DNA of 33,057 nucleotides from the IMG/VR virus record IMGVR_UViG_3300044611_002191, positions 1-33,057 of that record; one strand, given 5' to 3'. Made by a program: the position numbers and the translations under genes. Below are positions 3,941 through 32,586 of the stretch, piece by piece; position 1 is the stretch's first letter, and each line of letters opens with the position of its first letter. Under the pieces are notes generated by a model that did not search any database, had not been told where the DNA came from, and was given only the letters and a program-made list of their open reading frames with translations. The stretch is from a virus.

Positions 3941-6667
3941 CTATTTAGTTAAAGAACCACCAGTTGCTTTCAAAATCTCAGGCATCGTTCGGAGTTTTCC
4001 TAACGGTAATCCTTGAGGTTGAGACGGGGTAATCGCTGGACTGTCTGGAGACTTACGAATTGTGAAGTCGATGTCCACCCCAGAGAACCATGCTACTGAT
4101 GCGGGGAGGTCGTATATCCCTACTGAATAGCAGAACATCGCACGAGTCCAGAGGTGGGCAATCTGGAAGGCCAAGCAAAACCTCGCTGAATCTTCCTTCT
4201 TTACGATGTAACGGTACTCGTCGTGAATCGTGATACATAAGCGGGCGTTAATATTGTACTCTCGACATAGATAGGATGTGGCGGTTAGACAGAGGTGCAT
4301 GAAGTCTACACCACTGCTCTGGACTACCCAATTGATTTTTGAACTTAAGAAATCCCGATTTCCTGTGTATCGGGGGTGTAAAGCATCGCTAAGAGTTCTC
4401 CCTAGAGCCGGAGTACGAGGGTCATAAGATGTAGCAATATGCTCCATTTCATTAAACATTACTGATTCTGTACCCAGTTTCCACTTTCCTTCTATTTTTT
4501 TACCTTTCGTTTTGGTGAACATTTCAGTGGCAATAGACTTAGCTTCCGCAGTAGAGAGACTTTTGCGAAACTGTTTTAAGGTGTTTACAGTCGATGTTAG
4601 CCCCGCATTATAACGCCTCGAATAATTAATTACCTTAGCATCATCCCGTGATATTCCCAGGATTTGAGCAGTGGTAGTGTGCATATCAGACCCATCCTCT
4701 TTTCTCCCTACGAGGGTTTGGAAGCTTGCGGGAGTTCCCCCAATAATTCCTACCTTAGAATCCCCAAAAAGGTCGGATAAAGCCAATTCCTGTGAATCGA
4801 CATCAGCCCCAATTTGCAAATAACCTTCAGGAATCCGAATTGTGGTTTTAATCTCGCTACCTATACGGTTCTTTTTTGGGTTACTGCTTGTCAACCAAGT
4901 GCTTTCTACTGCCCGTCCCGTGACTGTTCCTGCTACCACCATCTGGGGAATAATAAATCCCGTTTGGTTGTCGGAGTTCATTACTACAAATTGGGATTTT
5001 ACCCGACTTTGTACTGATACCCAGTAAGAACAGGAAATTGCCGCTTCGAGGGCTTGTTTAGCTTCAGGGAAATCAGAGTTCAGCACTCCTTTCTCCATTT
5101 CAGCTAAGTAATCTTTGGATAGGGGGCAACCCACATTTGAGTCATCCCCGTCTTTATGGGGTATAGGGTAGTACACCTTAGTCGCTTCAGTCTCCCCCAC
5201 TTCTTCCCCAACATCATTTAGATAAATTGGGTCTAAATTGGATTCGACTTCTTCCCCAACTGGTGTCACAAAGCCCCATTTTCTTTTGGGATGGTGGTAG
5301 AGTGGGTAGTCAAACCATTTTAAACGAAGTAAGTAAGGAGTACACTGGGTTTTCACCGTTAGATTGATTTTTTCCCCCTTAAATAGTTTCCGATACCACT
5401 CAGGCTTATCCTTCATGATTTTTGCCCGGGAAGAAGGCATAGTCCAATCCAGATTACATAACCACGGGTCTAGTTTGGGGTCAAGACTCCCGTTTAAGAA
5501 TCCCTCAACCGCTTCATCTGTCAATAGACGCAAATGTTTCTCAACACGGGTTTTTTCTTCAACAAATTTACTTTCGGCTCTGTCTATATAACCGAACCAC
5601 GATTCACGGGTAATAGGCAGGATAGCCGTACCCATTTCTAGCATCCCAAAGAAAGTCACGTTAGATGGGCATTTTTCCCGAAATCTTGCCCACAATAGCT
5701 TATAAAGTTTGAAGGTAATCTCAGTGTCTTTCACACAATAGTCAGCTAATTGTTGAAAGCGGTTTCGGATTTCCAATAGAGTTCCAGTAACAAAATAGTC
5801 TCGGTCGTCTTTGGACATTTCGACACCCAGGTACAACCGAGCGGCATCTTTTAATGAATTACCAGAGCTAACATCAAGCCATGCAGAGGCATAATCTAAT
5901 CTAGCGTCCTCACCATTAGCTTTTGCTTTGGCATTTTTTATGCTCAGTGGACGTTGTTTAGAAGAAAGCCCCCCCACGCATTGGTGCATGGACATGACAT
6001 CCCAAAATCGGAGTCCACCTAACTCTAGGCTATAGGGTTCTAAAGTTCTCTGCCGGTCGTACTGTATATTCCACCCAGCTACCAGTTTAGGGCTATTTCC
6101 TAGTGGACAGAGGACATCACTGCCGTCTGTTGCCAACTTCGGACTAACCCAAAAGTACCAAGCTACTGGTGAGACAGCACTAGCCATCACAGGGTAATTT
6201 GAACTTCTTACAGCAACTTCCACGTCATACACCAGTCCATCTTCTGCTGGGTACGGAACGGGGTAGGGTTCTTCACCTGGTTCATAGCACGTCCAACCTG
6301 GACGTAACAGAATTTCGGGGGGTCTCGCTGGAATAACGGCTCTGGACATTTGTTCTGCGATAGATAAATAAGGTTGGGCTTGGGATTCTGCTATTTTATT
6401 GAAATGTTCTTCCAGGTCTGCCCCCTGGAGTGGGGGTAACTCAAATTCAATGTCTTCTGGTACATCGACTTCCACATTATCCAGTCCAAATCGGGCTAAT
6501 TCAGCTTTAGCCAATTTAACACTACCGGCGAAGGGCTTTTGACGTTCCCCGCCGAATAGTTGCTTCCGCATGGATTCAGGGATAAGTGGGATTCCTACTT
6601 CGTTTAACCTTGGCATTAGACCGTTATAAAAATGTTTACTTTGACTAACATTGATTTCTTGCTTCAC
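3941..6667 (-). CDS. DNA polymerase gamma-like family A DNA polymerase with 3'-5' exonuclease
   Basis: A 908-residue replicative polymerase of the mitochondrial polymerase gamma type. Proofreading motifs: Exo I D148/E150 (VYDVEV), Exo II N200..D204 (GWNIQYDR), Exo III Y310..D314 (YCVKD). Polymerase motif A is GADVDSQEL with D622, motif B R674..K678..Y682..Y686 (RDDAKVINYSRRYNAG), motif C HDEYRY with D816. GADVDSQEL, NWVVQSS, IPHKDG, LEMG and SVA.F..VDID match human POLG almost word for word from N- to C-terminus. It lacks a mitochondrial presequence, a large part of the spacer, and about 60 residues after TKGK. The start is GTG 6667 with no Shine-Dalgarno, after a 128-nt leader from the promoter at 6802-6830. 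Such enzymes are known from Acaryochloris phages. Confidence 0.96.
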   Translation of the reverse strand: MKQEINVSQSKHFYNGLMPRLNEVGIPLIPESMRKQLFGGERQKPFAGSVKLAKAELARFGLDNVEVDVPEDIEFELPPLQGADLEEHFNKIAESQAQPYLSIAEQMSRAVIPARPPEILLRPGWTCYEPGEEPYPVPYPAEDGLVYDVEVAVRSSNYPVMASAVSPVAWYFWVSPKLATDGSDVLCPLGNSPKLVAGWNIQYDRQRTLEPYSLELGGLRFWDVMSMHQCVGGLSSKQRPLSIKNAKAKANGEDARLDYASAWLDVSSGNSLKDAARLYLGVEMSKDDRDYFVTGTLLEIRNRFQQLADYCVKDTEITFKLYKLLWARFREKCPSNVTFFGMLEMGTAILPITRESWFGYIDRAESKFVEEKTRVEKHLRLLTDEAVEGFLNGSLDPKLDPWLCNLDWTMPSSRAKIMKDKPEWYRKLFKGEKINLTVKTQCTPYLLRLKWFDYPLYHHPKRKWGFVTPVGEEVESNLDPIYLNDVGEEVGETEATKVYYPIPHKDGDDSNVGCPLSKDYLAEMEKGVLNSDFPEAKQALEAAISCSYWVSVQSRVKSQFVVMNSDNQTGFIIPQMVVAGTVTGRAVESTWLTSSNPKKNRIGSEIKTTIRIPEGYLQIGADVDSQELALSDLFGDSKVGIIGGTPASFQTLVGRKEDGSDMHTTTAQILGISRDDAKVINYSRRYNAGLTSTVNTLKQFRKSLSTAEAKSIATEMFTKTKGKKIEGKWKLGTESVMFNEMEHIATSYDPRTPALGRTLSDALHPRYTGNRDFLSSKINWVVQSSGVDFMHLCLTATSYLCREYNINARLCITIHDEYRYIVKKEDSARFCLAFQIAHLWTRAMFCYSVGIYDLPASVAWFSGVDIDFTIRKSPDSPAITPSQPQGLPLGKLRTMPEILKATGGSLTK

Positions 6668-6830
6668 AGTGGGTAAGACGGCTTAACTCCACTCCACAAG
6701 CTAACACGAGCTAACTGCCCGTTTTACCCTAGTTAAAGGGGGTTTAACCCTGATTAATTAAGCTTGGTTCTCACTTAACCAGTTTTTGTTGGGTTAACCC
6801 CAGTATAACAGAGGGTGTGGCAGATGTCAA
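6621..6830 (-). repeat. Pol promoter-leader-start repeat, copy A
   Basis: About 210 bp covering the polymerase promoter, the 128-nt leader and the first 16 codons; a second copy lies at 21112-21323. Promoter plus leader differ at about 5 positions in 145, while the shared coding part differs at about 7 in 47. The leader contains GGGTTAACCC at 6791-6800 right at the predicted start point and small hairpins (GGTT/AACC; CCCT/AGGG). Confidence 0.9.
6802..6830 (-). promoter_or_regulatory. Early promoter of the polymerase gene
   Basis: TTGACA (6825-6830), 17 nt, TATACT (6802-6807), followed by the palindrome GGGTTAACCC at the likely start point. The -35 box overlaps the stop codon of the 6827 gene. 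One of a family of promoters here that share CCCC before -35 and CTCTGT before -10. Confidence 0.85.
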
Positions 6831-6982
6831 GGGGTTCCAGTATTAGAAATTGTTATTACTTTGGGGGGGCTTGGGGCGGTGATAAGTTTTTCTGATTGTA
6901 GAACCCATACAAGACCTACTGCCCCTACCAGTGCCAAACTTTTTAGCACGTTGACCATGCTTGGAACTTTAGTGCTTAACAT
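6827..6982 (-). CDS. Small single-pass membrane protein
   Basis: A 51-residue protein from ATG 6982 with a hydrophobic segment (VLKSLALVGAVGLVWVL) and a Pro-rich tail. The frame is open to ATG 7051 (74 residues, very basic extra N-terminus), but that would overlap the upstream gene by 44 bp, which is out of style here; neither start has a strong Shine-Dalgarno. Its stop codon overlaps the polymerase -35 box. Unknown role; last gene of the leftward cluster before the polymerase. Confidence 0.45.
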   Translation of the reverse strand: MLSTKVPSMVNVLKSLALVGAVGLVWVLQSEKLITAPSPPKVITISNTGTP

Positions 6983-9551: not shown

Positions 9552-11150
9552 TTACTCCTTAATGAACACTTGTTTTTTAGCTCGTGTCACTGCCACATAA
9601 AGCAGTTTCTTCCAGTTTGGGGCTGAATAAATGTCCTCTCCATCTACGAACACTGTGTCCCATCCAGAGCCTTGCGATTTATACACGGTAATCGCATTGT
9701 TATAACTCCAGTGATAAGTGAGGAAGCACAGGTTTTGCCACTCTTTATAAGCACCGTACAGTGCTTTACAATTTTTTTGCAAAACATTTCCAATTGCAAT
9801 TACTTCGTCTTTGTACTGTGTCCCTATAAAATCCAGAATTTCTGAAGCTAATTCCTCTGTGTCCATATTTTGGTCATATCCCGATTTTCCAGCAATCATT
9901 TCTTGTACCCGGTAAAGCACGTTTGTTACAAATTGTATGTCTTCCTGAATACTTTTTGAACGATTTAAAGTGTCCACCATTTGTTCATGTTTTGATGGGT
10001 CAACAAAAATCAATCTCCATGCCGCAGGTCTGTCTAATGACCGCACTTCGGTATCCCAGACTTCAACAGGATAGTTTTTTCGTTGCTGGAAGTTTAAAGT
10101 GAAATCCACCACTTCTTTTGCATCGAATATGTCTAAGCCTTTTTCAGGTAGGGGGTCGCAAAAATATTTTACAGTTTTTTGACTGAATACGACTTCCACT
10201 TCTTCCCCATTGGTAAAGGATATTCTTCTCACTTGACCGTTTTCAAACTTTTGGTAGAGATTTCTTTTTAGTGATAATAACTGCTCCCCACTTGAAAATG
10301 GTTTGTCATCGATTCCCCGTAAAGCTCGGATTAGGTTATTATAGCTACAGACTTTTTCGTTTCTGTGTGCTAGAACCTTATATTCCTTTTGGGCTAACGC
10401 ATATTCTCTGATTTTTCCGAACCAATCTCCTTTCGATAGAAGAAAGACATTGTGATACTTTTCTTCAAGTTCCTCCTGCGTGGACAGTATCTGCTCCAAT
10501 GGTGGTTTTTCAGGGGTTTGGACTTTGATTAACTTTCTAAGGTAATCGGCTACCTTTAAAGCCCCAGCATCAAATCTCACTACCTGTTCTAGTATTGAAG
10601 AACTTTTAATACTGAATACTGAGCTTGGTTTTTTACCTGGTGGGGGAAGTTGACATTCATCCCCCACCCATAGGATTTTCGATTTTATTTCTGTTGCCTT
10701 TTGTCGGATTTTTGTTTCGACTTCCAAATCTAAAACAGATACTTCGTCTACAATTATTAAGTCGTAGGTGTTATCCATTTTTGTAGACCCAGTATCCAGT
10801 ATTTGGCTTTCCGAGTCTCTGATGACTCTGGAACCTTTTACCTTGTAGTTTCCCCCAGTTTCTTGAACTACCAGCCCTAGAATGGCATGGATAGTTGACA
10901 CATCCGCCTGAAAGGTTAATTTTTCTTTCAATACTTTGGCCGCCTTGTTTGTCGGGGCGAGCATCACCACCTTGATTTCAGGGTGCAATGAAATCCAGTG
11001 CGCTATAAGCGTGGATTTTCCAGTACCCGCCGCACCGATTAGCAGATGCTCTCGTTTATTTAACCCCATTCTCCACCAGGTTTCTAGTTCCTTTGTGGCC
11101 ATAGCTTGGTCATTGGTTAATGTTTGGACTGATGGGGTTAATTGGGTCAT
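9552..11150 (-). CDS. RecD/Dda-like superfamily 1B DNA helicase
   Basis: A 532-residue 5'-3' helicase. Seen: Walker A GAAGTGKS (39-46), motif Ia MLAPTNKAA, Walker B IIVDEVSVLD, motif III ILWVGDECQLPPPG, and C-terminal motifs VYKSQGSGWDTVFVDG (V) and LLYVAVTRAKKQVFI (VI). This is the RecD2/Dda pattern. Size and lack of a nuclease domain fit T4 Dda, which helps origin opening and recombination. The region between motif III and V contains an SH3-like insertion (GEEVEVVF...). Leftward operon head, driven by the promoter at 11177-11205. Works presumably with the gamma-type polymerase and the SF3 helicase. Confidence 0.92.
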   Translation of the reverse strand: MTQLTPSVQTLTNDQAMATKELETWWRMGLNKREHLLIGAAGTGKSTLIAHWISLHPEIKVVMLAPTNKAAKVLKEKLTFQADVSTIHAILGLVVQETGGNYKVKGSRVIRDSESQILDTGSTKMDNTYDLIIVDEVSVLDLEVETKIRQKATEIKSKILWVGDECQLPPPGKKPSSVFSIKSSSILEQVVRFDAGALKVADYLRKLIKVQTPEKPPLEQILSTQEELEEKYHNVFLLSKGDWFGKIREYALAQKEYKVLAHRNEKVCSYNNLIRALRGIDDKPFSSGEQLLSLKRNLYQKFENGQVRRISFTNGEEVEVVFSQKTVKYFCDPLPEKGLDIFDAKEVVDFTLNFQQRKNYPVEVWDTEVRSLDRPAAWRLIFVDPSKHEQMVDTLNRSKSIQEDIQFVTNVLYRVQEMIAGKSGYDQNMDTEELASEILDFIGTQYKDEVIAIGNVLQKNCKALYGAYKEWQNLCFLTYHWSYNNAITVYKSQGSGWDTVFVDGEDIYSAPNWKKLLYVAVTRAKKQVFIKE

Positions 11151-11205: not shown

Positions 11206-11286
11206 GGGGTTTAGAAAAAACTTTTAGACTTTAACCTTAGTAGAAAACTACCGAAAATGTTAATAAATATCAACAAGGGTGGGTCT

Positions 11287-11304
11287 AAAACAGAACCCTG
11301 TTTT
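11287..11304. terminator. Weak hairpin after the RNA ligase gene
   Basis: AAAACAG / CTGTTTT with a 4-nt loop, 18 nt past the RNA ligase stop in the leftward direction. The U run is part of the stem, so this is a weak terminator candidate. Confidence 0.35.
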
Positions 11305-11321
11305 GACAATGTGGAACTTAA

Positions 11322-12338
11322 TTAGTCCTTCTGTTTTAATAAAAACTGGTTGGATATTGCCTTAAAGGAGGTGTATTCTCCCGTAAAGCTTCTATAAACT
11401 AAACCTTCTCGTTTAGACTGTGGGTTAAGCACGGAGGAGCCATCTGCCGCTTGGATTAGCTCGTCTACATTGGGGGGCAGAGTAGCAAACCCCTCTAGTA
11501 GGGGGACGGTATCAATACCTGCCTTTTTTAGCATACCCAGATAAGGGGCTTTGAAAATATCAAGACGTTCCCCCGTATCAAGATTGATTAGGTTAAACAC
11601 AAATAGCTGATGCTGTCCCAGTTTATAAGGGTTTCCTTGGATTTTGCCTCCCACAATTTCCCCTTGTAAGGCGGCATTAAAAGACAGGGAGAGTAAAAAA
11701 TCTTTAACCTTGTATTTATGGTAAGTCATCCAATATACGTTACCCTCAGTCTCCTTAAGCTCTAAATTACGAGAGCATACACCATGTTCGTCATTTTGAC
11801 GGTAAGCCGAAAAGCTAGTCCCGTCTAGTTTTTCAGTCACGGTGTAGGTTTTTTCGGATAAACTGGAATACTGGCTTTTTAGGTTTTGGATGCGTTCTTC
11901 ATCCGTTTTAGGGAGGAAGCCGGGGAAATTACCCTTAGCATCACCCCCTAATGAAGCACTAACGGGGGGTTCCCATTTTTTAACCCCTAGACGGTCAGAC
12001 AAGTCAAAACCTACGGGGAGATACTCTGAACCAGAGAGTAACTTGCAAAGAGGCAAAGCTAACCCTTGGCTAATTTGCCCTCTTAACTTTAAGGTTTTAA
12101 TGCGAAACCCCTTCTCACCCGTTGCAAGAGTTTTAAAACTAGAACTTCGCAAAAACTCATAAATAGGTAATTCGGGCAAAAAGGAATCAATTTCAAAGTA
12201 AACACACTGGTCTCCTACTTTAAATTCACCTTTCTTTACTACTACTTTCCATCCCTTAATGTGAGCTAGTTCAATAGCGGTGGCATCGGGGATGGGGGAA
12301 AGATTTTCAATAACTTCGAGGCTGGCTAGTTTACGCAT
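11322..12338 (-). CDS. RNA ligase (Rnl5/DraRnl-like)
   Basis: A 338-residue nucleotidyltransferase. The N-terminal 100 residues form an OB-type domain (KGEFKVGDQCVYFEID) as in Deinococcus RNA ligase. The catalytic domain has motif I EKLDGTS with Lys170 as the site of AMP attachment, ALQGEIVGG (motif III/IIIa), EGLVYRS (motif IV) and FKAIS (motif V). It seals nicked RNA or RNA-DNA ends through a ligase-AMP intermediate; in phages it is used for tRNA or RNA repair. Strong Shine-Dalgarno (AAGGAG) before ATG 12338. It is downstream of the Dam gene with a 75-nt gap holding a hairpin (AATGGG/CCCATT, 12370-12392). A phage tRNA-like RNA elsewhere in the window could be a substrate; that is only a guess. 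Confidence 0.88.
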   Translation of the reverse strand: MRKLASLEVIENLSPIPDATAIELAHIKGWKVVVKKGEFKVGDQCVYFEIDSFLPELPIYEFLRSSSFKTLATGEKGFRIKTLKLRGQISQGLALPLCKLLSGSEYLPVGFDLSDRLGVKKWEPPVSASLGGDAKGNFPGFLPKTDEERIQNLKSQYSSLSEKTYTVTEKLDGTSFSAYRQNDEHGVCSRNLELKETEGNVYWMTYHKYKVKDFLLSLSFNAALQGEIVGGKIQGNPYKLGQHQLFVFNLINLDTGERLDIFKAPYLGMLKKAGIDTVPLLEGFATLPPNVDELIQAADGSSVLNPQSKREGLVYRSFTGEYTSFKAISNQFLLKQKD

Positions 12339-15575: not shown

Positions 15576-15579
15576 CTCT

Positions 15580-15672
15580 TTATTTCTCTCCTGCTAGTCT
15601 TTGTTTAACTGGTTCTACATCTAGGTTTAATTCTTCCATTAGACTGATAAGTTTAAGAATTGCATTTTCCTA
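15580..15672 (-). pseudogene. C-terminal remnant of a VGD-family gene
   Basis: About 90 bp nearly identical to the end of the 15950-16411 gene, encoding ENAILKLISLMEELNLD and onward to LAGEK and TAA. It lies in the same reading frame as the 15670-15846 ORF, directly after that ORF's TAG, so the antitoxin-like gene seems to have replaced the N-terminus of a VGD copy. Readthrough of the TAG would give a fusion protein. Confidence 0.75.
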
Positions 15673-15846
15673 ATCATCATCAAAAGGAAGAGCATCGGTA
15701 TCTGACAAAGCATTAGCCTCGATTTCTGCATCACTCATCGATTTAACTCGCTCCCAATCGGTTAAATCGCTTAAATCTTGCCTTTCCTCTCTTGTGTTAA
15801 GAATCCCCATTTTGGGGGCTACTCTCTTGATACTTTCTTCGCTCAC
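15670..15846 (-). CDS. Small antitoxin-like protein (BrnA-like pattern)
   Basis: A 58-residue protein with TDWERVKSMSDAEIEANALS, a pattern common in short antitoxins of host toxin-antitoxin pairs (DWER..x..SD..I). GTG 15846 with GGAGAG 9 nt upstream is preferred over the earlier GTG 15867, where that ribosome site would be inside the ORF. No toxin partner is adjacent, and the C-terminal DNA-binding part seen in BrnA is missing. The TAG stop is followed in frame by a VGD-family tail. Either an orphan antitoxin countering a host toxin or a fragment. Confidence 0.45.
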   Translation of the reverse strand: MSEESIKRVAPKMGILNTREERQDLSDLTDWERVKSMSDAEIEANALSDTDALPFDDD

Positions 15847-15949
15847 GTTCGTTTGCTCTCCTAGCACTAATCAATCGGCAAGTTTCCCCTCTTATACTAT
15901 AAGACAACATAACAGATTATCCCGTTTAATTGTCCCAGTAAACACATCC

Positions 15950-16411
15950 TTATTTCTCTCCTGCGAGTCTTTGTTTAACTGGTTCTACATCTAGGTTTAA
16001 TTCTTCCATTAGACTAATAAGTTTTAGAACCGCATTTTCTCGGTCTACTCCGTCTGAGGCAGGTAGATTTCTAATTGTTTTTTCTAGTTTCTCCACCCCA
16101 TATTTCAGTGCGATGGTTGTTCTTCGTCCTTTTTCTAAATTCCCGCACTCCTCATCATAGAGATATAACATAGAACTTGTACCCACAGCACAGGGTACAA
16201 TCCCGTACCAGTTTGCGTATTTTCTCCCGTTATTCTGTTTTATCTCTCTTTTTACCTTCCACTCACCACTTGGCCAGGTTGAGTTTACTACCTTAACATA
16301 GGCTAAGGTTCTAGTGACCCTTTTTACCTCAAATACTAGGAAAGAGCCATTTCTTGTCTTAACTCCTAATCGGTCTCCGACTTTAAGTTCTAACCCTGAT
16401 TCTTCTGTCAT
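15950..16411 (-). CDS. VGD-family hypothetical protein, copy 2
   Basis: A 153-residue paralogue of the next gene: LKVGDRLGVKTRNGSF, then FEVKRVTRTLAYVKVVN, WKVKREIKQ, YGIVPCAV, and a shared helical C-terminus (DRENAVLKLISLMEELNLD). The N-terminal half looks like an SH3-like beta-barrel, the C-terminal half a helical bundle. Overlaps the 16408 gene by 4 bp. Function unknown. Confidence 0.65.
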   Translation of the reverse strand: MTEESGLELKVGDRLGVKTRNGSFLVFEVKRVTRTLAYVKVVNSTWPSGEWKVKREIKQNNGRKYANWYGIVPCAVGTSSMLYLYDEECGNLEKGRRTTIALKYGVEKLEKTIRNLPASDGVDRENAVLKLISLMEELNLDVEPVKQRLAGEK

Positions 16412-16848
16412 TTATTTAGTTCATCCTTTACTCGTTTTGAATCTAATTTCAATTCTTCCATTAATTGTAATAATATTAGAACTGCATTTCCCCGGTCTAC
16501 CGAGTCTAGATTTGATAGTCCTCTCACTTCCTCCTTGACTATGGATACCCCTAATTTTAATGCTAGGGTAGTCGCCTGTCCCCTTTTTTGCACCTCGCAC
16601 GCTTTGTCGAATAAATATAGTGGCTCAAGCGTATTTACAACATTGGGGGTAGTCCCGTACCAAACTGCTACTTGTCTGTCTCCCTCTAGTTTCAACTCTT
16701 TTTTTACCTTGAACACCCCACTTATCCAATTGTAGTTTGTCACTTGGATATGGGCTAAGGTTGGAGTTACCCGCACTACTTTAAACTCTAAAAAATCATC
16801 AAAGGTTCTAATGCCTAGTCGGTCTCCCACTCTAAGTTCATTTCCCAT
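16408..16848 (-). CDS. VGD-family hypothetical protein, copy 1
   Basis: A 146-residue protein: LRVGDRLGIRTFDDFLEF, KVVRVTPTLAHIQVTN, FKVKKELKL, WYGTTPNVV, and DRGNAVLILLQLMEELKLDS. Clear tandem duplicate of 15950-16411. The open frame extends to 16902, but that start lies in the -35 box of the promoter; ATG 16848 gives a leader of about 19 nt. First gene of a leftward operon that continues towards the methyltransferases. Confidence 0.65.
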   Translation of the reverse strand: MGNELRVGDRLGIRTFDDFLEFKVVRVTPTLAHIQVTNYNWISGVFKVKKELKLEGDRQVAVWYGTTPNVVNTLEPLYLFDKACEVQKRGQATTLALKLGVSIVKEEVRGLSNLDSVDRGNAVLILLQLMEELKLDSKRVKDELNK

Positions 16849-21111: not shown

Positions 21112-21323
21112 CCGTTATAAAAAATGTTAACTTTCATTAACATTAATTTCCTGTTTCACAGGGGGGTAAGACGGCTTAACCCCACTCCACAAGCTAACAC
21201 GAGCTAACTGCCCGTTTTACCCTAGTTAAAGGGGGTTTAACCTTGATTGATTAAGCTTGGTTCTCACTTAACCAGTTTTTGTTGGGTTAACCCCAGTATA
21301 ACAGAGAGTAGATTAAATGTCAA
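21112..21323 (-). repeat. Pol promoter-leader-start repeat, copy B
   Basis: A second copy of 6621-6830: promoter, leader and a decayed start of the polymerase gene. From GTG 21159 it reads MKQEINVNES then a stop, against MKQEINVSQSKHFYNG in the real gene, so the coding part is dead while leader and promoter stay nearly identical. It marks either a recombination scar from an old polymerase duplication or a retained regulatory element. Confidence 0.9.
21295..21323 (-). promoter_or_regulatory. Early promoter in repeat copy B
   Basis: TTGACA (21318-21323), 17 nt, TATACT (21295-21300), with GGGTTAACCC at 21284-21293. The spacer matches those at 11177 and 29131 rather than the polymerase one. It would transcribe the 21112-21290 leader and the non-coding region. 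Confidence 0.85.
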
Positions 21324-21335
21324 GGGGTTCGAGAA

Positions 21336-22617: not shown

Positions 22618-23244
22618 CTAATCGTCGCACGCAACCCGAAAACCAAAGTCGTCGTAGTGGATGACGGGGTTGTTCTGGAGGCGGTTAGCAGAACGACAGT
22701 AATAAGGGAAGATGTGCCAAGAACCGCCCCGCAGACAAATATCCTCACACCACTCCCAAACATTACCACTCATGTCATAAAGCCCCCAACCATTGGGCTT
22801 TTTCTGTCCTACAGGATGAGTTTTGTTATTAGAATTTTCGTCATACCAAGCGTACTCCCCTAACTGATTAGCATCATTACCAAAATAATAGTGAGTAGTT
22901 GTACCTGCTCGACAGGCATATTCCCATTCAGCTTCTGTGGGAAGACGATAGGTTTTGCCTGTGATTTCACTTAATTTTAGGCAAAAGGCTTGAGCATCGT
23001 CCCAACTAACTTGTTCTACTGGATTTTGGGGACTATTTTCAAAGTAAGAGGGATTGGTTCCCATTACTGCTTGATACTGTGCCTGAGTAATGGGATATTT
23101 GCCAATGGCAAAACTGTTTACTTTAACTTGGTGTTTAGGCTTTTTAGAATCACTTTCAGAAGAACCCATGAGAAATTGACCTGCTGGTAAGCTTACCATT
23201 TCTAATGTTACTCCGTTGGGTAGTTTTTCGGTAAATTGGTTCAT
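22618..23244 (-). CDS. FGE/SUMF1-fold protein 1, candidate DGR target
   Basis: A 208-residue FGE-sulfatase (C-type-lectin-like) domain: EMVSLPAGQFLMGSSESD, YPITQAQYQAVMGTNPSYF, PVEQVSWDDAQAFC, YRLPTEAEWEYACRAGT, GLYDMSGNVWEWCED, then RGGSW..... GFRVACDD at the end. The final 35 codons are mostly NNC (CAC ATC TTC, TAC, CTC, AAC AAC, GTC ATC CAC TAC), the trace left when AAC codons in a template repeat are varied. It lacks about 25 residues present in FGE2 between WEWCED and RGGSW. ATG 23244 follows an A-run without Shine-Dalgarno; the longer frame to 23391 starts inside the promoter. Confidence 0.82.
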   Translation of the reverse strand: MNQFTEKLPNGVTLEMVSLPAGQFLMGSSESDSKKPKHQVKVNSFAIGKYPITQAQYQAVMGTNPSYFENSPQNPVEQVSWDDAQAFCLKLSEITGKTYRLPTEAEWEYACRAGTTTHYYFGNDANQLGEYAWYDENSNNKTHPVGQKKPNGWGLYDMSGNVWEWCEDICLRGGSWHIFPYYCRSANRLQNNPVIHYDDFGFRVACDD

Positions 23245-23270
23245 TTTTTTTTTTGTTAGTCCCAAATAGT

Positions 23271-23295
23271 TGATAACTGATAACTGATAACTGAT
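23271..23295 (+). repeat. (TGATAAC)n short tandem repeat, FGE1 leader
   Basis: Three and a half TGATAAC units in the untranslated leader of FGE1; a matching two-unit version is in the FGE2 leader at 24459-24472. Confidence 0.8.
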
Positions 23296-23362
23296 TATAG
23301 CGTTCGACTGGTTGTTTATCGTTACCCGTAATCTTGTTTTCCGTGTTTGTTTGCCTGATGCT

Positions 23363-23391
23363 ATCTTATGCGATTCTCCCAGAAATGTCAA
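23363..23391 (-). promoter_or_regulatory. Promoter of FGE1 with degenerate operator
   Basis: TTGACA (23386-23391), 17 nt, TAAGAT (23363-23368). ATTCTCCCAGA (23373-23383) and TATGAGAGAAT (23395-23405) form an inverted repeat with two mismatches around the -35 box. Confidence 0.7.
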
Positions 23392-23428
23392 GTGTATGAG
23401 AGAATCTTTTTTTGAACAAGTGTACTAC

Positions 23429-23462
23429 TGATAACTGATTAATTGTCGCAGACTAGCAACCA
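23429..23462 (-). repeat. Remnant of an FGE gene end
   Basis: The sequence TAATTGTCGCAGACTA here repeats the coding end of an FGE gene (VCDN) as at 23740-23757, next to a TGATAAC unit. It suggests that FGE2 once ended here or that a third copy was lost. Confidence 0.5.
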
Positions 23463-23474
23463 ATAATTAATGAA

Positions 23475-24434
23475 TTAAGCTTTGCAATCTTGGAGAAAAG
23501 CCCATAAATAATCTTTATGTTCGGTAAAATTATTTAGCATTTGATACACTTTTTGAGTATCAAAAACACCTGGATAAACACCGGAATAGGGTTGGTGGAA
23601 ATATATTTTACAGTAGAGACCATCTTCGCTTATTGCTAAACGATGTCCTAACTTTACTAGCATTTTTTCGAGCTTTACAGCAAATTCTTTTACACTAGAG
23701 GTAAGAAGGGGGAAATTAAAGGCGTTGTAAAAGAACATTTGATTGTCGCAGACTACCCGAAAACCGTCGGTGTCGTCGTAGTTGTGGCGGCTGTCGTAGT
23801 AACGGTAAGCGGAACGGCAGTCACACCGAAAGTCGCTCCAAGAACCACCCCGCAGTATTTGATAATCATTATCATTTGTTACCCAGGCACTGCCATTCTT
23901 TGGTGCATTTTCGTAGCTATCGTGCCAATTGTCTTCGCACCACTCCCAAACATTGCCACTCATGTCATATAGTCCCCAACCATTGGGCTTTTTCTGTCCT
24001 ACAGGATGAGTTGTATTTTGAGAATTTCCTTCATACCAAGCGTAATTTCCTAACTGATTGGCATCATCACCAAAATAATAGCGAGTAGTTCTATCCGCAC
24101 GACAAGCATATTCCCATTCAGCTTCTGTGGGTAGGCGATAGGTTTTGCCGGTTATTTGACTCAATTTCTGACAAAAGGCTTGAGCGTCATTCCAACTAAT
24201 CCTTTCTACCGGATTTTGGGGATTATTATAAAAATAAGAGGGATTGGTTCCCATTACCGCTTGATATTGTGCTTGAGTAATGGGATATTTCCCAATAGCA
24301 AAACTGTTGACTTTAACTTGGTGTGGAGGCTTTTCATCCTCGCTTTCAGCAGAACCCATGAGAAACTCACCTGCTGGTAAGCTTACCATCTCTAGTGTGA
24401 CTTGATTGGGTAGTTTTTCGGTAAATTGGTTCAT
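23475..24434 (-). CDS. FGE/SUMF1-fold protein 2 with C-terminal extension, candidate DGR target
   Basis: A 319-residue tandem paralogue of FGE1, nearly identical over the first 150 residues. RGGSWSDFRCDCRSAYRYY and DGFRVVCDN (about residues 197-232) hold the variable-type patch with AGC GAC, TAC, TAC TAC GAC AGC, CAC AAC TAC GAC GAC codons. After it comes a distinct 87-residue domain (EFAVKLEKMLVKLGHRLAISED, YCKIYFHQPYSGVYPG, FLQDCKA) absent from FGE1. In cyanobacteria such proteins are ligand-binding targets of diversity-generating retroelements. No reverse transcriptase or template is in the window. ATG 24434 follows a poly-A leader. Confidence 0.82.
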   Translation of the reverse strand: MNQFTEKLPNQVTLEMVSLPAGEFLMGSAESEDEKPPHQVKVNSFAIGKYPITQAQYQAVMGTNPSYFYNNPQNPVERISWNDAQAFCQKLSQITGKTYRLPTEAEWEYACRADRTTRYYFGDDANQLGNYAWYEGNSQNTTHPVGQKKPNGWGLYDMSGNVWEWCEDNWHDSYENAPKNGSAWVTNDNDYQILRGGSWSDFRCDCRSAYRYYDSRHNYDDTDGFRVVCDNQMFFYNAFNFPLLTSSVKEFAVKLEKMLVKLGHRLAISEDGLYCKIYFHQPYSGVYPGVFDTQKVYQMLNNFTEHKDYLWAFLQDCKA

Positions 24435-25202: not shown

Positions 25203-28200
25203 CTAATATATTGTAGCAGGTATTGGTTTTAGATGTTCAGGGACTTTAAGGGATTCTATAATCCCCAAAGTTAGAGCAAAATGTTCCTTATCTTTAAAAT
25301 AAAATTCCGCCATATCTTTAGGACTAGCAAATCGTTCTATACCCATTGAAATTACTTCTGTGGAGGGGGAATTTTTATAAATTTTACCCACATAGGGGTG
25401 AACCCAGTTTCCGGGGTAAGCCACTTCGCCAGCAGGATAACCCTTTATTTGCTTAAGTTCATCTGAAGTTCTATTTTTAGCTAAAAATTCCTTAGCTAAG
25501 TTGGCAAATTTAGGGTCAGACCCTTCCAGCAGGTGTGCCGCTTCATGAAAAACTGAGGGTTTAACATCATTGGAACGGGTTACAGATATAGAAAGATAAT
25601 TATTTTTTTGGGGTTCTTGTGCATCGAATCCAGCCCAACTTCTTTTTTTTTCGCTGAGTCCAATACGGGGGACTAAGTTGTTCAGAATCCCCCCTGTAAG
25701 TTTATGAAATTCAGCCAAAGCCTTACTAATTACAGGAGTGTGAGTTTTATAGATAGGGTCTTCAGTATTGGCTGGTTTAAGATTTTTAGTGTATTCACCT
25801 ATTTGAAAATTAGTTTGTCCCACTAGGAGGTCAGAGTTTACAGAATTATTATTATCAAGCAGTTCTTGATACAATAAGTTCATCTGTTTCTCAAGGTAAG
25901 TATCAAGAGACTGCTTCAGTTTACGTTTTCTAGCAAAAAGTTTTTGGGCTTTTTCAACGTCTTCAGGGTTTTTAGGGTCTAAAGATTTTAGCTCCGCATT
26001 GATTTGGGCATCTTGAGTTTCAAAAACTTTGACAAGTCTATCCAGTTTAAACTGGGAGATTTTAGATTTTGCAGAATTAATAGTATCAGTGTACTCTTTG
26101 GAAACCTGTTTAGGAGTAGTTGGTTTTGGCTCTGCGGGTTCTGGTTTAGGGTCTAAGTTTTTTTGAGTTAAGCTACTCATTAATTTTGTTTTAGGCGGCT
26201 CAGTCTGGTTAATACTATCTAGAACCCCAAGAATAAAATTAAAGTGATGGTTTGATTCTGTGTAGAGAGTAAATGCGTCTGTAGGGTTACGAAGTCTTTC
26301 AAAACCTGTAGATATAACCTCTGTGGCTGATACCCCTTTGTTGTATGTTCTACCCACATAATTATTTATAAAATCACCTTTATACCCTCTGTAGGTCATA
26401 CCCCTGTGTTCGATGTCTTCCTCTTGCCCCGAATAACTATGTTTTTTCAGGAACTCCATAGATGCTTTTAGGAGTCCAGGTATGTGGGATTCCAGAATGT
26501 GAGCCATTTGATGGAAGGTCTGAAGTTTAAATACTTCATCACCGAGTCCAATAGCCCCGATTCTAATATGTGTCAATTTTTCTGGCTTATCTGGATGGTA
26601 GCGGACGTAACTAGAACCATTTCTGTCTACGTCAATCATAGGAACCAATTCTCCCAGAAACCCCTTAGTAAGAGAGTGGAAATCTTTAACACTTTCTTTC
26701 ACTAAATCCACGTTCCTATCTGATTTATCTAGTTCTTGCCCATACAATGTGAATTTAGAATTTTCCAAAAGTTTCTCTAAGTCTAAATCTTTACTAGCTT
26801 CTTTGTAGGATTCTAGAAGATTTTGAACATTTTTCTCGAATTTTGCCCTAAATTTCTTTTCAAGATTTTTGTGTTTTTTGAAAACCTCGTCAAATTGACG
26901 TATAACTTCTTCTCTGTCGGAGTCGGTTAAAGTAGGGTCGTCATACATACCCATTATTTTAGTGTTAAATTCTCTTAGTATACCACTTAGTTCTTGGAGT
27001 TTTCCTAGTGTTTTAGTATCGTTCAACCCATATTTAGAGCTAATTTCTTGTCCTCTTTGAGTGTAGTTATCTAGGGTCAAATTCTTTGCCTCAGCAGATT
27101 TATTTGGTATTTCCTCAGCAGATTTATTTGGTATTTCCTCAGCAGATTTATTTGGTATTTTCCTAACAGATTTATTTGGTAGCCGGTAAGATTCAGAATT
27201 TCTAGTAGAGTTAACACGGTCAAGCGCACCAAGAATATAATTAAAGTGATGATTAGAATTTACAAAAAGTTTAAATGCGCTATCTGGATTACTTAAACGT
27301 TCAAATCCCGTAGATAAAACCTCTGTGGCTGAATTTTGGACGTAAAATCTACCCACATATTCATCTATAAAGTCCCCCTTATATCCTGAGATAGGTACAC
27401 CCAGGTAATCAAAATTCTCTAGAGTTCCAGTGTAACTATGTTTTTTCAGGAACTCTAGAGACGCTTCTTTGAGACCAGGAACATGAAGCTCAACTAGGTG
27501 CGCCAATTCATGGAAGGTCGCCTGCCTCAGAGGAACTTCCCCCTGTCCAGATGTCCCAATGCTGACTATTGAACTTTGTGCGGGTTTATTAGGGTAAACG
27601 GCATAGCTATTACCTTCATTGTTAACATCCAACAAATTGGGAAAGCCTATAATATTGCCGTTAGTGAGATAGTGAAAATCTTTATAGGCTTCCCTCACCA
27701 TATCAACGTCCTCATTTAAATCTCTTGGAAAACCATTTCTTACAAATCTAGTCTTTAAAATTACTTTATCCATGTCTAAATCTGAAGCATTTTCTCTATA
27801 GTCGTCTAAAAGTTGTTCAACTTTTTTCTCAAAGTCTTCATAGGCCTTCTTTTGTGTCTCCAATATATCGTCATTAATTTTTTTTAGTTCCTCCATGTCA
27901 GAAGGCGTTAATGACGGTTTTTCTTGGAAACTGAGTAATTTGTCTATTAACTTCGCCAGTCTGCCTAAGAACTTATTATCACTCAACCCATATTTAGAGC
28001 TAATTTCTTGTCCTCTTTGAGTATAGTCATCTAGGGTAAAATTCTTTTTCTCAATAGGTTTAGCATTAACTGGCACAGTTGACACAGAATCAGGTTTAGA
28101 CGGTGTGGATTTAGACTTATCTGATTTATTTTTTGCGTAATTAATTAATTGTTGTTTTAAAGCATCACGAACCCTTTGTCTAAATTTGGCGAAGGGGGAG

Positions 28201-28466
28201 GATGGTTTAGTTTTTTTAGCCTCGGAAGAAGTGGGTTTAGTGGCTTTTTTCTTATCTTTTTGGGGCTTAACCACATCAGGTTTAGTAGCCCATTTACCAG
28301 TCAAGGGGTCTCGTTTGTGCTTAGACGGGTCAAAGGAAAAAGCTTCCCCTTTAACATTAGTACCTTTAACAACCCCCATACCATCTTTAATATTACCGCC
28401 ACGGGATTTCCCGGGGTCTTGGGGGGAATTAGGGGAGTATAATTTTCTACCTTTGCGTCTGGCCAT
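25203..28466 (-). CDS. Three-repeat zincin-like metalloprotease, candidate virion-associated effector
   Basis: A 1087-residue protein: a basic N-terminus of about 130 residues (MARRKGRKLYSP; RDPLTGKWATKP) followed by three homologous domains. Each has a metal-site helix: HELAH (27498-27512), HQMAH (26499-26513), HEAAH (25533-25547), then YVGR.Y or YVGK.Y and S(A/P)TEV(L/I)S(T/M)G.ER with a conserved Glu, and an HF end motif. The middle copy has Gln for the catalytic Glu. Repeats 1 and 2 are closest and are joined by IPNKSAEE repeats. Phage heads often carry such domains on MuF-like proteins. ATG 28466 is 36 nt past CGCCCAA site 7; the ATG at 28502 lies in the motif itself. Confidence 0.8.
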   Translation of the reverse strand: MARRKGRKLYSPNSPQDPGKSRGGNIKDGMGVVKGTNVKGEAFSFDPSKHKRDPLTGKWATKPDVVKPQKDKKKATKPTSSEAKKTKPSSPFAKFRQRVRDALKQQLINYAKNKSDKSKSTPSKPDSVSTVPVNAKPIEKKNFTLDDYTQRGQEISSKYGLSDNKFLGRLAKLIDKLLSFQEKPSLTPSDMEELKKINDDILETQKKAYEDFEKKVEQLLDDYRENASDLDMDKVILKTRFVRNGFPRDLNEDVDMVREAYKDFHYLTNGNIIGFPNLLDVNNEGNSYAVYPNKPAQSSIVSIGTSGQGEVPLRQATFHELAHLVELHVPGLKEASLEFLKKHSYTGTLENFDYLGVPISGYKGDFIDEYVGRFYVQNSATEVLSTGFERLSNPDSAFKLFVNSNHHFNYILGALDRVNSTRNSESYRLPNKSVRKIPNKSAEEIPNKSAEEIPNKSAEAKNLTLDNYTQRGQEISSKYGLNDTKTLGKLQELSGILREFNTKIMGMYDDPTLTDSDREEVIRQFDEVFKKHKNLEKKFRAKFEKNVQNLLESYKEASKDLDLEKLLENSKFTLYGQELDKSDRNVDLVKESVKDFHSLTKGFLGELVPMIDVDRNGSSYVRYHPDKPEKLTHIRIGAIGLGDEVFKLQTFHQMAHILESHIPGLLKASMEFLKKHSYSGQEEDIEHRGMTYRGYKGDFINNYVGRTYNKGVSATEVISTGFERLRNPTDAFTLYTESNHHFNFILGVLDSINQTEPPKTKLMSSLTQKNLDPKPEPAEPKPTTPKQVSKEYTDTINSAKSKISQFKLDRLVKVFETQDAQINAELKSLDPKNPEDVEKAQKLFARKRKLKQSLDTYLEKQMNLLYQELLDNNNSVNSDLLVGQTNFQIGEYTKNLKPANTEDPIYKTHTPVISKALAEFHKLTGGILNNLVPRIGLSEKKRSWAGFDAQEPQKNNYLSISVTRSNDVKPSVFHEAAHLLEGSDPKFANLAKEFLAKNRTSDELKQIKGYPAGEVAYPGNWVHPYVGKIYKNSPSTEVISMGIERFASPKDMAEFYFKDKEHFALTLGIIESLKVPEHLKPIPATIY
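27090..27182 (-). repeat. 24-bp coding tandem repeat (IPNKSAEE)
   Basis: Four units, the last degenerate, of a 24-bp repeat encoding IPNKSAEE between zincin domains 1 and 2, probably a flexible linker of variable length. Confidence 0.85.
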
Positions 28467-28501
28467 TATAAATTGGGGGAATGATGCTTCTGTACAGGAC
28501 A

Positions 28502-28513
28502 TTGGGCGTATAG
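28502..28513 (-). promoter_or_regulatory. CGCCCAA motif, site 7
   Basis: Minus-strand CTATACGCCCAA, 36 nt before ATG 28466. It is a perfect 12-bp inverted repeat of site 8, so this region copies the outward-facing design of 810-903. Confidence 0.6.
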
Positions 28514-30569: not shown

Positions 30570-32552
30570 CTAATCCACCATCAGTTTTAAAAACCCCTTA
30601 GCAAGGTTAGTTAGGACTTTGTGAAACCCTAGATATACGTCCTCATCGTCTAAGTCTTGGACATCTGAGATAATTTGGTTATATAGGGGGTCATAGCTTT
30701 TACTGCCTTCGTAGTAGCTCACGATTACGGATAAGTCCCTACGAAGTTCGTAACCTCCAGTAGTGGTTAACCCCTTAAGCATATTTTCTATGATGTTAGC
30801 GGGGCTATTGTGTTGGGAAGCTAACTCCAAGCCTTTTAGTATTGCATTATTTAATCCTGTAGCGGACACGGATTCTACTATGGCGTAGGGATGACCTTTA
30901 GGTTTCCCCCTTTTCTCAAAATCAGACTTTAAATAGCGACATAAATCAATACCTTTATTTCCCATAAAGGCTCTTTGAGCTTCGAGAAAGAACACTGCGA
31001 GTTGGTCATCAAAGTTAGCACTAGACTCGTAGTATTCACCAATCCCACTCTTGGAGTCAATTCCCGAAAAAACCATACAGAATCTCCAGAAGTGAACCAT
31101 ATCCTTTGTAGCATTTTGAACTGTACGGATTCTCAGTTCTTTATGGAGGGCTACAATGGTTTCTTCCAGACGGTTAGGATTGGTTTGAGCCATAGTAGCC
31201 CCAGTCATCCTCAGCATCTGATTATAAGTTTCATCTGATAGCGAAGGAAATTTTTTGGGGTCACGGGGCAATACGGACTCAGTGTAACCTGCCACTTTGA
31301 GGAACTCTTCGGAGGACAAGTGGAGTAGCCAAAACCCCAAAACATCGGTAGTGGTATTAAGTTTTTTAGCCAGATAATTCCAATGATGCCAAGTTCGGAA
31401 ATCAGGGCTACCAGAGGATAACCCAGTACCCACCATTTTCTTTAATTCTGTCTCCTGGTAAATAGAGAGCATATTTACCCTGTCCTTAATACCGTCATCA
31501 GCATTATACAAGTCACGAGCATTCCACTCGTTAGAACAAGCAATTATGACAGTTCGAGACTTAACGTTTATTGCGTCAACTCCTTTATTTTCGGTGCGTA
31601 GTACACCGTTACTAACCAATTGCTTAGTCAGCCCGGAGTGTAACATTTTTTGTTGGGTGGATTTGGTGAGGTCATCCAGATAAGCCAGATGGGAGACAGC
31701 AATTTCCCCCCAACCAAATCTGCCAAAGTTATCAGCCATGGTTTGGATGTCATAGCCGCAATTTTTCAGAGCGTCCATTACAAAGGTCATTAGAGCCGAT
31801 TTACCCAAGCCTGGTTCACCCAAGACAATGCCCATAGAGCGAAACTTATGGTTAATGTCGATTCCCTCAACAGTTGTGGAATCACCACTTCCAACCACAA
31901 TTCTCCCGACTAATAAGAGGAACATTTGACGTTCTGCTTCGGGAAAGATGGACAACAAATCTTGGGCTGTAACCTCCTGAATGCGGGGGTCAAACCAAGA
32001 TTTCTGGGGAACTATATATTTCCCACCAGTACCACCCCTTAAACTGATGCCAGAATTGTATCGTTTGGTTTGCTCACCAGCCAACATTAAAAGAGCAGTA
32101 TTAAAAACTGGTCTACGATTGTCCCCATTGTGAAACACTAAAGGTTTCCAGTATTCCCAAACTTGCTTGCTACAATGAATCTTAATCGTGTTTACTGCGT
32201 CCTCCAGGGTGTCCTGGTGTTCCATTGGCACAATTTTCTTTTTCCAATGGAAATCCGAAGGTGGTTTGTAGCCATCCCCAGTGGAAGCTACCGTGTAGGG
32301 ACAGTCAATATAAATTTTGTGTCCAGCTAAATCACCCTTTGGATGGGGGATAAGCTCTAGCCCATGTTGAGCCAGAACTCGCATTCCCTCCCGATAACGG
32401 GTGAAATCCCCCATAAACTGACCCTCATCATCAGAATCTCTAGGGGTTTTTTGTTCTTGCTGGTTCTCAAATCGGTTTTCATGGGGGTCACAACCCTCAT
32501 GGTTGAATTTGTCCACGCTATTTTTTTCTCTTGGAGTTAACTTTCTCGTCAT
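30570..32552 (-). CDS. SF3-type helicase / D5-like primase-helicase
   Basis: A 660-residue protein. The C-terminal half has a superfamily 3-type AAA+ core: Walker A GEPGLGKS (245-252), Walker B AYLDDL, and sensor/motif C VIIACSN, followed by an Arg-rich KDRVNML region. The N-terminal 200 residues (IDCPYTVASTGDG, RGGTGGKYIVPQ) might be a degenerate primase or DNA-binding part; no zinc finger is seen. It would unwind DNA at the fork for the gamma-like polymerase. The frame opens at TTG 32564; ATG 32552 is preferred. Confidence 0.78.
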   Translation of the reverse strand: MTRKLTPREKNSVDKFNHEGCDPHENRFENQQEQKTPRDSDDEGQFMGDFTRYREGMRVLAQHGLELIPHPKGDLAGHKIYIDCPYTVASTGDGYKPPSDFHWKKKIVPMEHQDTLEDAVNTIKIHCSKQVWEYWKPLVFHNGDNRRPVFNTALLMLAGEQTKRYNSGISLRGGTGGKYIVPQKSWFDPRIQEVTAQDLLSIFPEAERQMFLLLVGRIVVGSGDSTTVEGIDINHKFRSMGIVLGEPGLGKSALMTFVMDALKNCGYDIQTMADNFGRFGWGEIAVSHLAYLDDLTKSTQQKMLHSGLTKQLVSNGVLRTENKGVDAINVKSRTVIIACSNEWNARDLYNADDGIKDRVNMLSIYQETELKKMVGTGLSSGSPDFRTWHHWNYLAKKLNTTTDVLGFWLLHLSSEEFLKVAGYTESVLPRDPKKFPSLSDETYNQMLRMTGATMAQTNPNRLEETIVALHKELRIRTVQNATKDMVHFWRFCMVFSGIDSKSGIGEYYESSANFDDQLAVFFLEAQRAFMGNKGIDLCRYLKSDFEKRGKPKGHPYAIVESVSATGLNNAILKGLELASQHNSPANIIENMLKGLTTTGGYELRRDLSVIVSYYEGSKSYDPLYNQIISDVQDLDDEDVYLGFHKVLTNLAKGFLKLMVD

Positions 32553-32586
32553 CACTGGCCGCAAATAATTTGTCCTTGTTGAACCC

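Follow-up and report, generated by a model that had tools for sequence, protein, structure and literature searches.

The window analysed here, an IMG/VR virus fragment of 33,057 bases taken over its whole length, carries on the minus strand a GTG-initiated open reading frame of 908 codons with 0 internal stops (positions 3941-6667), here denoted polG, together with other genes of a replication module. The features relevant to this analysis are the following:

3941..6616, minus strand: polG, probable true coding sequence from the ATG at codon 18, 891 aa (judged from the homology start, a repeat and low pLDDT)
4196..4240, minus strand: Pol C motif, H815/D816/E817 (motif reading)
4298..4987, minus strand: tract divergent from the intron-bearing siblings, down to 53% identity per 100 nt, against 94-100% elsewhere
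4592..4660, minus strand: Pol B motif, R674/K678/Y682 (= human Y951)/Y686 (= human Y955)
4772..4822, minus strand: Pol A motif GADVDSQEL, D622/E627; relatives carry a putative group I intron after S625
4792..4793, minus strand: empty intron site, GATTCA/CAGGAA here, GACAGT/intron/CAAGAG in L008-L010
5708..5752, minus strand: Exo III motif, Y310/D314 (motif reading)
6038..6082, minus strand: Exo II motif, D204 (motif reading)
6206..6238, minus strand: Exo I motif, D148/E150 (motif reading)
6621..6840, minus strand: promoter-bearing dispersed repeat of about 220 nt; second copy at 21112-21333, likewise on the minus strand
9552..11150, minus strand: replication-module helicase (SF1, Dda-like), 56% to its Mic1 counterpart
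30570..32564, minus strand: primase (DUF5906) of the replication module, 39% to the Mic1 primase

The predicted product of polG matches the mitochondrial DNA polymerase exonuclease domain of Pfam (DNApol_Exo, PF18136) with an E-value of 2.3e-80 and 270 bits (cut-off 26.7), the family A Pol domain PF00476 (3.6e-13), and PHROG 22619 (6e-191). In a phmmer search of the PDB, the top match was yeast Mip1 (E=1.4e-196, window residues 18-901), followed by human and mouse POLG (about 1e-166 to 1e-170; human, 5.6e-170), with 37-39% identity to the yeast and human enzymes from end to end. The catalytic residues are kept in all six motifs, Exo I-III and Pol A-C. An AlphaFold model built on phage sequences only (pLDDT 83, pTM 0.83) has POLG of human or mouse, or yeast Mip1, as its best twenty PDB fold matches, with TMq of 0.83-0.88. 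An earlier note, made from the letters alone, had described this gene as a full-length POLG homologue in a phage, with three Exo and three Pol motifs matching those of POLG and with the shared segments GADVDSQEL, NWVVQSS and IPHKDG; all three segments are present in the protein, and the structural comparison proposed there agrees with that description. Sequence and predicted fold thus confirm a complete gamma-type, family A DNA polymerase that is a true homologue of POLG, with predicted polymerase and 3'-5' exonuclease activities and, possibly, processivity. There is next to no likelihood that the gene encodes a polymerase of the common T7-like or Pol I-like sort whose motifs resemble those of POLG by chance, a reading for which the PF00476 match could be cited: the PF18136 match, the full-length POLG matches with E-values below 1e-165, the fold (TM only about 0.4 to T7 polymerase) and the tree described below all contradict it, and membership in either group is ruled out by tree and fold.

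The protein probably starts at the ATG of codon 18 (window position 6616) rather than at the GTG, because codons 1-16 lie inside the dispersed repeat, pLDDT is below 50 over residues 1-16 of the model, and the alignment with Mic1, like those with the yeast and human enzymes, begins at residue 18-19 of the 908-aa frame. Two repeat copies of the sibling locus L008 have stop codons in the frame of the polG start. The repeat upstream of polG contains TTGACA (6830-6825) and, after a 17-nt gap, TATACT (6807-6802), and then a conserved leader of about 170 nt followed by a terminator-like, AT-rich hairpin with a T run. Copies occur also in siblings (L008 765-979, 20302-20475 and 22389-22605; L095 9878-10066). 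The leader appears structured, with a fold z of -3.1 for one copy and -1.0 for the polG copy. Searches of Rfam and of phage databases gave no match to this repeat, which could represent a small RNA present in several copies or a leader with an attenuating role.

The closest described relative is the polymerase of Mic1, a phage of the bloom-forming cyanobacterium Microcystis described in 2020, 64% identical to that of the window over its whole length. The two phages have in common the helicase, an RNA ligase, two methyltransferases, the primase, an endolysin-like gene and the genes flanking polG, and the Mic1 DNA polymerase gamma (ORF85/ORF86, PMC7156551) has the same replication-module neighbours. 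In Mic1, the polymerase (gp85-gp86), primase, RNA ligase and helicase form one middle-expression cluster (PMC11237433). The host of the window phage is probably Microcystis, judging by the relationship to Mic1 and by a stretch of DNA with 85% identity to Microcystis myophages. Phage homologues of POLG were known, as the earlier note had said: published phage gammas include those of A-HIS1/2, S-TIM5, S-CBWM1 and Mic1 (PMC7156551). The A-HIS1/A-HIS2, S-TIM5 and S-CBWM1 enzymes resemble that of the window in being full-length and compact, without spacer or presequence, but are only 30-32% identical to it and are farther from POLG than the window clade. We found 130 IMG/VR stretches encoding relatives; among the best 80 of the 130 that were kept, full-length phage gamma frames are about 890-1010 aa long, and all those read are compact. 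No relatives were matched in plasmids, and cellular genomes yielded one partial match, in a MAG contig that is possibly viral. A pattern scan for A-HIS-type relatives matched none, with patterns that were too narrow. The earlier note had placed the novelty of the gene in its context and compact form. Neither is new, because the same gene sits in a conserved neighbourhood in Mic1 and the phage gammas that were read are all compact, so that a context or compactness unique to the window is ruled out; in these respects, the gene is of a known kind.

Compared with yeast Mip1 and human POLG, the polymerase of the window has the same domain order, six motifs and fold but lacks the presequence, about 180 aa of the human spacer and the C-terminal extension of Mip1. 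Its spacer comprises 308 residues, against 491 in the human enzyme, where we take the span to be D399-D890; the absence of a mitochondrial presequence and of the long human spacer, which had been read from the letters alone, is thereby borne out. The features of the animal POLG holoenzyme, an accessory-interacting spacer and a POLG2 partner, are not found in the window phage. No domain of POLG2-like fold (HGTP_anticodon) and no DnaB/Twinkle-type helicase were detected in ten polG-bearing phage records, with positive controls in both searches; a search for a T7-type RNA polymerase likewise gave no match, but neither did its control. Co-encoded partners of a mitochondrial-type replisome were rejected for these ten records on the strength of the first two results, and thus POLG, if it came from such phages, would have come without those partners. 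The suggestion that the window enzyme represents an ancestral, accessory-free form is consistent with the lack of a POLG2-like domain in the ten records, which falls short of establishing it.

In pairwise comparisons, human POLG scores 591 bits with the window protein, 585 with that of Mic1 and at most 430 with about 80 other phage proteins; the respective values for yeast Mip1 are 658, 607 and at most 425 bits. By these scores, the next best relatives of the window protein after Mic1 are the yeast and human enzymes, ahead of other phages. Maximum likelihood trees were built under a mixture model, with two eukaryotic sequences, yeast and a human sequence put together from aligned PDB segments and lacking most of the spacer, and no protist or early-branching fungal POLG. 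In the tree with Pol I and T7-like outgroups, human and yeast group with the window and Mic1 (92/82); when siblings and L096 are added, the eukaryotes join the window/Mic1 clade with support of 100/99 in an unrooted tree and 100/100 with T7-like outgroups. The window and eukaryotic POLG form a monophyletic group excluding T7 and Pol I (100/100), with the window gene on the sister side of the eukaryotic gamma clade. Forcing the eukaryotes to group with A-HIS (p=1.2e-7), S-TIM5-type (1.5e-6) or S-CBWM1-type (4.8e-5) enzymes was rejected in AU tests. The data therefore support the window/Mic1 lineage, and not the marine cyanophage gammas, as the group specifically sister to POLG of animals and fungi, and, on present data, as the closest relative of the mitochondrial enzyme among the sampled phage versions. 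The authors of the Mic1 study concluded a common origin from a neighbour-joining tree (PMC7156551); in the available part of that paper, Mic1 is not singled out as the sister of POLG.

When the root is of T7 type, the eukaryotic genes come to lie within the phage family, and monophyly of all phage gammas is rejected (AU p=0.017), so that transfer from phage to eukaryote is favoured, with a root within the phage gammas that is weak (68/38 with Pol I and T7-like outgroups, and a different order with T7-like outgroups only, on a very long T7 branch). It has already been proposed that POLG came from a cyanophage and took the place of POP in animals (PMC3914683); our data back this idea and point to a lineage of the Mic1 type. 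We put at slightly under even the chance that the Mic1/window lineage is a living remnant of the phage stock that donated the mitochondrial polymerase to the ancestor of animals and fungi. Should this be so, the donor enzyme would be open to study in a compact, single-chain form.

Two other readings of the trees have to be weighed. The first, which we deem unlikely, holds that the position of the root is an artefact of long branches or composition, such that all phage gammas form one clade to which POLG is merely sister. Human POLG and some outgroups do have an odd composition, the outgroup branches are long, and the AU p-value is only moderate; yet the tie between the window/Mic1 clade and the eukaryotes does not depend on the outgroup (100/99 without one), is visible in plain pairwise scores, and was recovered under a mixture model with the other pairings strongly rejected, so that such an artefact would touch only the root. 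The second and still less probable reading reverses the direction: an ancestor of the Mic1 and window phages would have taken POLG from an early opisthokont or a relative of one, making this clade a eukaryotic gene in a phage, separate from the other cyanophage gammas. The unrooted sister relation is silent on direction, and with seven IMG/VR loci and Mic1 the Mic1-type clade is small next to the wide range of S-TIM5/S-CBWM1-type gammas. However, human and yeast form a clade of their own (100/99) with the phage clade outside, the eukaryotes lie inside the phage family under the T7-type root (AU p=0.017), and the gene resides in a conserved phage replication module, without presequence or spacer insertions. 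Where mitochondrial Pol gamma came from has long been an open question. A phage clade that is specifically sister to POLG, and nearer to it than the marine phages behind the original idea, offers a direct means of rooting the family and allows the enzyme to be compared before and after its mitochondrial add-ons.

The window gene differs from most of its close relatives in being continuous. The seven other Mic1-type alleles covering the site (L008-L010, L095-L097 and Mic1) are all interrupted after codon 625, at the S/Q junction of the Pol A motif (GADVDS/QEL), by inserts of 898 nt (L008-L010), 894 nt (L095 and L097), 298 nt (Mic1) or 294 nt (L096). Representative coordinates are as follows:

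L008, 11876-12773: polG intron
L095, 4282-5175: polG intron
L096, 7834-8127: polG intron
Mic1 (L002), 11254-11551: polG intron

The inserts look like group I introns. Rfam matches to RF00028 (group I intron) were obtained for Mic1 (E=1.9e-10) and L008 (2.5e-6), with scores of 45.5 and 32.9, respectively, below the curated cut-off of 50; exon GACAGU pairs with intron CTGTC to form P1, in which the 5' splice site is marked by a U.G; the introns end in G; and both ends are conserved between Mic1 and L008. The long versions hold a 223-225 aa reading frame, which in L008 is that of an HNH_3/NUMOD4 endonuclease. An intein was considered in place of an intron and rejected: neither 898 nor 298 is divisible by three, and the frame of the 5' exon meets a stop (TAA) immediately after the site. 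Phage group I introns with HNH endonucleases occur in DNA polymerase genes, for example in SPO1-type phages. The present case resembles those in the kind of gene interrupted, the HNH frame inside the intron and the divergent tract in the flanking exon, but here the polymerase is of gamma type and homing, like splicing, is presumed from the sequences. The A-HIS1/A-HIS2, S-TIM5 and S-CBWM1 copies that were read have no intron at this site.

Neither the window nor L007, its near-identical twin, has the intron; in the window, the site is empty at the very position where the 298-nt intron splits the Mic1 gene. The two site sequences are GACAGTCAAGAG and, in the window, GATTCACAGGAA; with GATTCA/CAGGAA in place of GACAGT/CAAGAG, the P1 pairing is broken. 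In the final 1400 nt of the 5' exon, the DNA of L008-L010 is 94-98% identical to that of the window. Identity to the siblings, mostly 94-100%, drops to 53-84% around the empty site, in a stretch that reaches about 100-300 nt upstream of it and 500 nt downstream. Between the window and L008, codons 626-790 have 67 synonymous and 37 nonsynonymous differences, against one in codons 1-400. The sharp divergence tract and the HNH/NUMOD4 frame of L008, whose endonuclease activity is only predicted, fit a homing intron, and the pattern as a whole fits an intron polymorphism that bears a recombination footprint like that of homing. The simplest account would be that alleles with and without the intron recombined, in one direction or the other, and the window allele is now likely a poor homing target owing to its changed site. 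That the window instead lost its intron by precise removal is highly improbable: the presence of the intron in 7/7 of the other alleles would suit such a loss, but precise removal leaves the exon unchanged, and the exon tract around the site is massively different. The gene provides a natural pair of replicative polymerase alleles with and without an intron; this polymorphism and the specific sister position to mitochondrial POLG are what takes it beyond routine.

We hold with considerable confidence to an account in which polG supplies a phage related to Mic1, and probably infecting Microcystis, with its replicative DNA polymerase, a single-chain, proofreading enzyme of gamma type that would act with the phage's own Dda-like helicase and primase. 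The lineage comprising the window phage, its near-identical IMG/VR siblings, Mic1 and L095-L097 would share with animal and fungal POLG a common ancestor more recent than that of POLG and any other sampled phage polymerase, and the eukaryotic enzyme would most likely have descended from a phage enzyme of this stock, later gaining its targeting sequence, spacer insertions and, in animals, the contact with the accessory subunit. In most relatives, a group I intron, sometimes with its own HNH endonuclease, would interrupt the most conserved Pol A codons, whereas the window allele is free of it, with a site that should be a poor target.

Several further features were observed in the window. Tandem duplicated genes at 22618-24434 encode proteins of 257 and 319 aa with an FGE-sulfatase fold, called kinase in Microcystis phages; their DNA is 86% identical over 300 nt, and part of it is 85% identical to MaMV phages. 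A 1099-aa reading frame at 25203-28502 (minus strand) contains long internal repeats about 1 kb apart and has no Pfam match. Across small reading frames at 15577-16507, a repeat of 81-93 nt occurs in three degenerate copies spaced at 370 and 452 nt.
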